Origin: Floccularia luteovirens
Lineage: Eukaryota; Basidiomycota; Agaricomycetes; Agaricales; Squamanitaceae
Assembly: GCA_009739215.1 (NCBI GenBank)
Contig: VSJF01000001.1
Span: 1,054,001 to 1,118,000 of the forward strand
Direction of reading: 5' to 3'
Length of the DNA: 64,000 nucleotides
The notes under the pieces: model-generated
The model's input: only the letters and a program-made list of their open reading frames with translations
The model's database searches: none
Told to the model about the DNA's origin: nothing
In this document: in pieces, positions 33,826 to 34,208 of the stretch
Numbering within the stretch: position 1 is the first letter of the stretch
How the letters are laid out: every line of letters begins with the position of its first letter
Program-made: the position numbers and the translations under genes

Positions 33826-34208
33826 TCAGTCTAGAGCAGCTGCAGATCTCTTCCAGTCTCTACCGTCGGCCTCAGCCTCTCTCTTCCAGTCTCGCCCGTC
33901 GGCCTCCCTTTTCCAGTCTCTCCCGTCGGCCTCAGCCTCCCTCCTCCAATCACGTCCGTCAGCTTCCCTCTTCCAATCACGCCCATCAGCGACCCTCTTC
34001 CAGTCGCGTCCGTCAGCAGCTCTCTTCCAGTCGCGCCCATCGGCAACTCTCTTCCAGTCCCTCCCGTCAGGCTCCGCCACCTAGATACCATAAAGGTTAA
34101 TAAGAAGGACATTCCAACATTATAAGAAAATAAACTAACAGGGGCGGCCACCACTAGGGAGGTAAGGATCAACATAACGAATGAGAGATAGCGCAAGCTA
34201 GGTGACAT
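33826..34208 (-). CDS. Secreted repeat-peptide precursor with Kex2 sites (8 x DGRDW)
   Basis: Two exons (34140-34208 and 33826-34080; 59-bp intron) encode 107 residues. Exon 1 is a signal peptide, MSPSLRYLSFVMLILTSLVV followed by AAP. Exon 2 consists of eight copies of DGRDW, each followed by KR (RR once). The spacers before the copies are VAEP, VA, AA, VA, EA, EAEA, EA and EAEA, and the end is SAAALD. Every spacer is a string of X-Ala or X-Pro dipeptides. This is the plan of yeast alpha-factor: Kex2 cuts after KR, a carboxypeptidase trims KR, and a Ste13-type dipeptidyl aminopeptidase trims the N-terminus, leaving DGRDW. No CaaX box, so it is not a classical basidiomycete pheromone. A linear signal or a cyclised RiPP are both possible; no tailoring enzyme is adjacent. 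Confidence 0.82.

Follow-up and report, generated by a model that had tools for sequence, protein, structure and literature searches.

A predicted KEX2-processed repeat protein with eight DGRDW pentapeptides, and look-alike loci, in Floccularia luteovirens

In the stretch of Floccularia luteovirens DNA that was analysed (64,000 nucleotides of contig C1, referred to as the window), we found a gene on the minus strand (34208-33826) that most likely encodes a precursor from which a linear pentapeptide, DGRDW, is released and secreted. Since eight copies of the pentapeptide core stand at dibasic sites and are separated by XA spacers, we assigned the gene to the STE13-type KEX2-processed repeat proteins (KEPs). 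KEPs are widespread: 1345 of the 1461 fungal strains surveyed carry a total of 7878 (PMC7329392). Their functions are described as largely unknown in PMC9769878. The KEPs, their STE13 subtype and the Trp-ended cores of Basidiomycota are already known; what is new here is the DGRDW sequence, together with two other KEP genes and a KEP-like locus elsewhere in the genome.

Structure of the gene and its repeats

The window gene has two predicted exons:

34140..34208, minus strand: exon 1, 69 nt, 23 codons, hydrophobic leader MSPSLRYLSFVMLILTSLVVAAP by translation (best 12-residue Kyte-Doolittle mean 2.79)
34081..34139, minus strand: predicted phase-0 intron, 59 nt, GTTAGT...CTAG
33826..34080, minus strand: exon 2 by translation, VAEP, eight DGRDW with KR or RR sites and XA spacers, tail SAAALD, TGA stop

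The spliced product was predicted to have 107 aa, with a leader that ends in VVAAP and is followed by VAEP. A KEP carries a secretory signal, and the leader, judged by hydropathy, would provide one for the window gene. The predicted intron contains a branch-like TTAAC 15 nt upstream of its 3' end, and without splicing the first ATG enters another frame to give a 125-aa ORF. Although the intron was predicted from the sequence, it is supported by the KEP genes found on contigs C2 and C3, which have in common with the window gene a 69-nt first exon and a phase-0 intron (C3 by eye).

A DNA-pattern search placed the eight cores as follows:

34054..34068, minus strand: DGRDW core 1
34027..34041, minus strand: DGRDW core 2
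34000..34014, minus strand: DGRDW core 3
33973..33987, minus strand: DGRDW core 4
33946..33960, minus strand: DGRDW core 5, then RR
33913..33927, minus strand: DGRDW core 6
33886..33900, minus strand: DGRDW core 7
33853..33867, minus strand: DGRDW core 8

A KEP has at least three repeats with dibasic sites, and the STE13 type has XA or XP dipeptides after the dibasic site. In the window gene, all eight DGRDW cores are followed by a dibasic site (KR seven times and RR once, after the fifth), and the spacers between the cores are VA, AA, VA, EA, EAEA, EA and EAEA, with XA dipeptides in 7 of 7. The original prediction of a two-exon gene giving a leader and eight copies of DGRDW, each followed by KR or RR, was borne out by translation, with the intron as a prediction; the proposed Kex2-processed, alpha-factor-like plan agreed with the dibasic sites and with the XA spacers, which the original prediction had left unmentioned. 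When the exon-2 protein was shuffled 20,000 times, the maximum 5-mer count was 4, compared with 8 for DGRDW. Figures for the genome (27 Mb, 22 contigs) were obtained with DNA patterns whose counts are lower bounds; the pattern used for DGRDW (DGSDW fits it as well) matched at least 18 places, eight in the window gene and 10 isolated, while the reversed pattern matched none. When the window ORFs were screened in a simple way for residues that recur ahead of dibasic sites, the DGRDW gene was the only hit.

The DNAs of the eight cores are all distinct, with 1 to 5 differences per pair out of 15 nt. At least eight substitutions separate them, and every one is synonymous (P about 2e-6, using a simple model of independent changes with a transition bias of 2 and a mean synonymous fraction of 0.196). 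Such synonymous-only variation would be expected if the peptide is under selection, and it argues against a repeat that was copied recently or is decaying. The window gene could nevertheless be non-functional, with a repeat that arose by chance or is in decay: none of the 934 candidates from the protein database matched the window precursor at E up to 10. Against this stand the synonymous-only variation of the cores and the look-alike genes of the same plan on C2 and C3, and we consider a non-functional gene extremely unlikely.

Proposed processing and known precursors

Based on the sites seen in the window gene and on the published peptides from like precursors of Pleurotus and Lentinula (PMC9769878), we propose that the leader would direct the precursor into the secretory pathway and that kexin (KEX2) would cut the precursor after every KR or RR. 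The KEX1 carboxypeptidase would then trim the basic pair off each DGRDW C-terminus, and a DPP4/STE13-type dipeptidyl aminopeptidase would strip the XA dipeptides from each N-terminus, with export of up to eight DGRDW molecules per precursor.

The kexin P domain had one match in the genome, and the neighbouring exon matched kexin in the PDB (E 3e-70). Compared with the three kex2 genes reported for agaricomycetes in PMC9769878, one kexin gene was found by our exon-by-exon search, which others may escape. The STE13 type of KEP also calls for a dipeptidyl aminopeptidase in the genome; on C19, a DPPIV_N match (2.1e-48) together with a DPP4 match in the PDB (E 8e-18) revealed a DPP4-like dipeptidyl aminopeptidase gene.

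KEPs that carry STE13 signatures and whose cores end in -SDW, -AADW or -W have been published for Basidiomycota (PMC6339444, PMC9769878), and linear -AADW peptides from like precursors were detected in Pleurotus and Lentinula (PMC9769878). Pichia pastoris served in that study as a host for the expression of KEPs. As described there, Pleurotus ostreatus KEP 1091723 (SGVAADW) and Lentinula edodes KEP 2599 (SGTGEASAADW) resemble the window gene in having KEX2-site repeats and a C-terminal DW, and the XA/XP spacers of the Pleurotus precursors resemble those between the DGRDW cores. In contrast to the cores of these KEPs, the window core is a strict, charged pentapeptide without the -AADW end, and it is predicted from the gene. 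The XSDW-motif KEPs (PMC6339444) and the reported Coprinopsis cinerea KEP 490115 (QYKAPSW), the latter with STE13 motifs like the window gene, also combine KEX2 repeats with a C-terminal Trp; their cores differ from DGRDW, and the likeness is one of plan, without a scored alignment. The original prediction named no described peptide with this sequence, and DGRDW was not found in the literature searched either. The kind of precursor is known, however, since W-ended STE13-type KEPs of Basidiomycota are in print (PMC6339444, PMC9769878). With a single invariant product of five residues, the window gene would be an easy KEP test case, with one synthetic peptide, one mass and one gene.

It was also suggested originally that DGRDW may be the core of a cyclic RiPP. 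In the dikaritin-like form of this idea, the KEX2-released core would be cross-linked by UstYa (DUF3328) oxidases. The precursor plan is identical, as dikaritin (ustiloxin-type) precursors likewise have a leader followed by KEX2 repeats, and the UstYa profile had three matches in the genome. According to PMC7329392, 22% of KEPs have a DUF3328 gene nearby, and the same holds for 17 of the 76 KEPs with homology to six STE13-type precursors from Basidiomycota; given the latter result, STE13 spacers do not exclude UstYa enzymes. On the other hand, a dikaritin precursor has a UstYa gene near it, whereas the three UstYa matches are on C3 and C21 only, with none on C1, and the window precursor is flanked by MCM and WD40 genes. 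The 30 window ORFs covered by the Pfam scan (out of 212 stop-to-stop ORFs of at least 80 aa) contained neither a UstYa nor a tyrosinase family. The families in the scanned ORFs include pyruvate kinase, MCM, WD40/Prp19, Myb, OPT transporter, TauD, RPN2 and kinesin; a P450 match was under its cut-off, and 7 of the 30 or so ORFs had no family. Among the best 120 of 424 matches to a Prp19 exon of the window, Agaricales proteins came closest, led by Crassisporium funariophilum at 80%; by this one gene the host is probably a member of the Agaricales, with no close named relative among those matches. Furthermore, DGRDW contains no Tyr, and the STE13 signature present in the window spacers is absent from the cyclic-peptide precursors cited in PMC6339444, according to that paper. 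The cyclic option was left unsupported, and we regard it as quite improbable.

Two divergent UstYa (DUF3328) matches lie about 1.2 kb apart at C21:1114073-1115754. A simple scan of 9.9 kb around this pair, which a split gene could escape, found no KEP-like ORF.

Possible uses of the peptide

The alpha-factor layout and the XA spacers of the window gene raise the question of an alpha-type mating pheromone. Ascomycete alpha-pheromone precursors have a leader and KR-(XA)n-core repeats, as the window gene does, with an unrelated core. However, Basidiomycota are reported to use a-type pheromones only (PMC6339444), and a search for STE2, the receptor that goes with ascomycete alpha-pheromones, gave no match in this genome or in the control genomes, and was thus without a positive control. 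Exon matches to STE3 numbered 24 in the genome, on C22, C21 and C14, and a weak PF08015 match was found at C22:383348 between two STE3 genes (21.2 bits, or 22.6 bits with neighbours, at a cut-off of 22), apart from the window gene. The product of the window gene ends in SAAALD and not in the CaaX C-terminus of basidiomycete lipopeptide pheromones; the original prediction was correct in noting that a CaaX box is missing. Since the CaaX box is absent and the weak pheromone match lies among STE3 genes on another contig, a mating role of the window gene is unlikely, and DGRDW as an alpha-type pheromone appears very improbable.

At C22:381305-415774, the STE3 matches form about four receptor genes, the first two of which flank the weak lipopeptide-pheromone match. 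This region is a probable pheromone/receptor mating locus.

For the use of DGRDW, our tentative choice, held at somewhat short of even confidence, is an extracellular self-signal in the mycelium or fruiting body, distinct from a mating pheromone; a secreted signal was among the options of the original prediction. Hormone-like roles were proposed for STE13-type KEPs (PMC6339444). The self-signalling role is weakened by Coprinopsis cinerea, in which six kep knockouts gave no phenotype according to PMC9769878. The knockouts were phenotype-free in pure culture, and the authors of that paper favour biotic interaction. DGRDW may accordingly be a secreted peptide directed at other organisms, be they competitors, prey or partners among plants and animals, with the precursor biochemistry unchanged. 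Synthetic Coprinopsis cinerea KEP peptides are reported to be without antibacterial activity in the same paper, and the present analysis identified no target; we consider a role toward other organisms possible, but somewhat less likely than a self-signal. Many copies of DGRDW per precursor would also suit a peptide that works in bulk at the cell surface or wall, comparable to Rep1 of Ustilago maydis, but the core is very short and charged, and Rep1 is without the STE13 signature as presented in PMC6339444. It is very unlikely that DGRDW acts in this way.

Look-alike loci in the same genome

Closely spaced pairs of DWKR sites were matched by a DNA pattern at least 11 times in the genome, at three places (five matches in the window, four on C2 and two on C16), while the reversed pattern had no match. 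Together with a locus on C3, the look-alikes are as follows:

C2:507785-509018: KEP gene, sixteen G[SG]PDW cores (12 GSPDW, 4 GGPDW), tail TIAQLD
C3:982085-982667: KEP gene, EP/VA-type spacers, cores such as GSPGDQDW, GSPSDQDW and GSQGNQNW, core ends QDW, QNW and VNW
C16:2459058-2459643: KEP-like locus, five DWKR sites, tail LDTNLD

The pattern CNGAYTGGAARMG, which admits DWKS too, matched at least 49 places (16 on C2, five on C16, one on C3 and 27 others), and its reverse matched 16. All 27 other places were inspected, and a second DWKR within 700 nt was present at none of them. WKRE[AP] matched at least 26 places (three in the window gene, 12 on C2, four on C3 and seven isolated), with 14 for the reversed pattern.

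The model of the C2 gene has 14 predicted exons, separated by 13 introns that are 51-59 nt long. Eight of the exons are 27 nt long, and each is predicted to code for a single unit, GSPDWKREA or GGPDWKREA. A pattern of whole codons and a GT donor fits all 12 repeat exons as well as the preceding exon; the exons were chosen by this pattern, and phase 0 was thus a precondition. The mean pair identity of the introns was 0.596 compared with 0.555 after shuffling, and that of the repeat units was 0.82. Since the units reach this identity and the introns are barely above the shuffled level, the C2 repeat units appear to be under constraint, unlike the introns, which seem to have diverged. Compared with the window gene, the modelled C2 layout, with mostly one repeat unit per tiny predicted exon, is the more unusual observation. 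In the literature searched, no title describes a KEP with one repeat unit per exon, though one may still occur in print. Should the C2 model hold, surveys that start from predicted proteins could overlook a repeat gene of such tiny exons.

One could speculate further that the xxxDW pentapeptides (DGRDW, GSPDW and GGPDW) form a small hormone family with which mushroom-forming fungi signal between cells outside mating, via some receptor. The dose from C2 would be set by the tiny phase-0 exons, as their skipping or duplication would alter the copy number with the frame intact. We consider this proposal unlikely.

The KEP-like locus on C16 may be degenerate. Enumeration of its exons did not bring the five DWKR sites together in one reading, and in a provisional exon model the first exon is apparently 72 nt. 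The products of C1, C2 and C16 have a C-terminal -LD in common, and the C3 product is without it. From their plan and gene structure, without a scored alignment to the window gene, we infer that the C1, C2, C3 and C16 loci may be of common descent.

In the protein database, nine of 2583 candidates matched the C2 precursor at E up to 10, three of them below 1e-3. The best matches, with W-ended cores, were from Sanghuangporus vaninii (3.9e-7), another protein (1.4e-5) and Panaeolus papilionaceus (2.0e-5). Since chance or convergence can also yield scores between repetitive sequences, these matches point to a similar plan more than to shared ancestry. The weak matches were from Volvariella and Lentinula, again with W-ended cores, three further proteins and Westerdykella, an ascomycete, in which the matching protein is longer and contains Cys.
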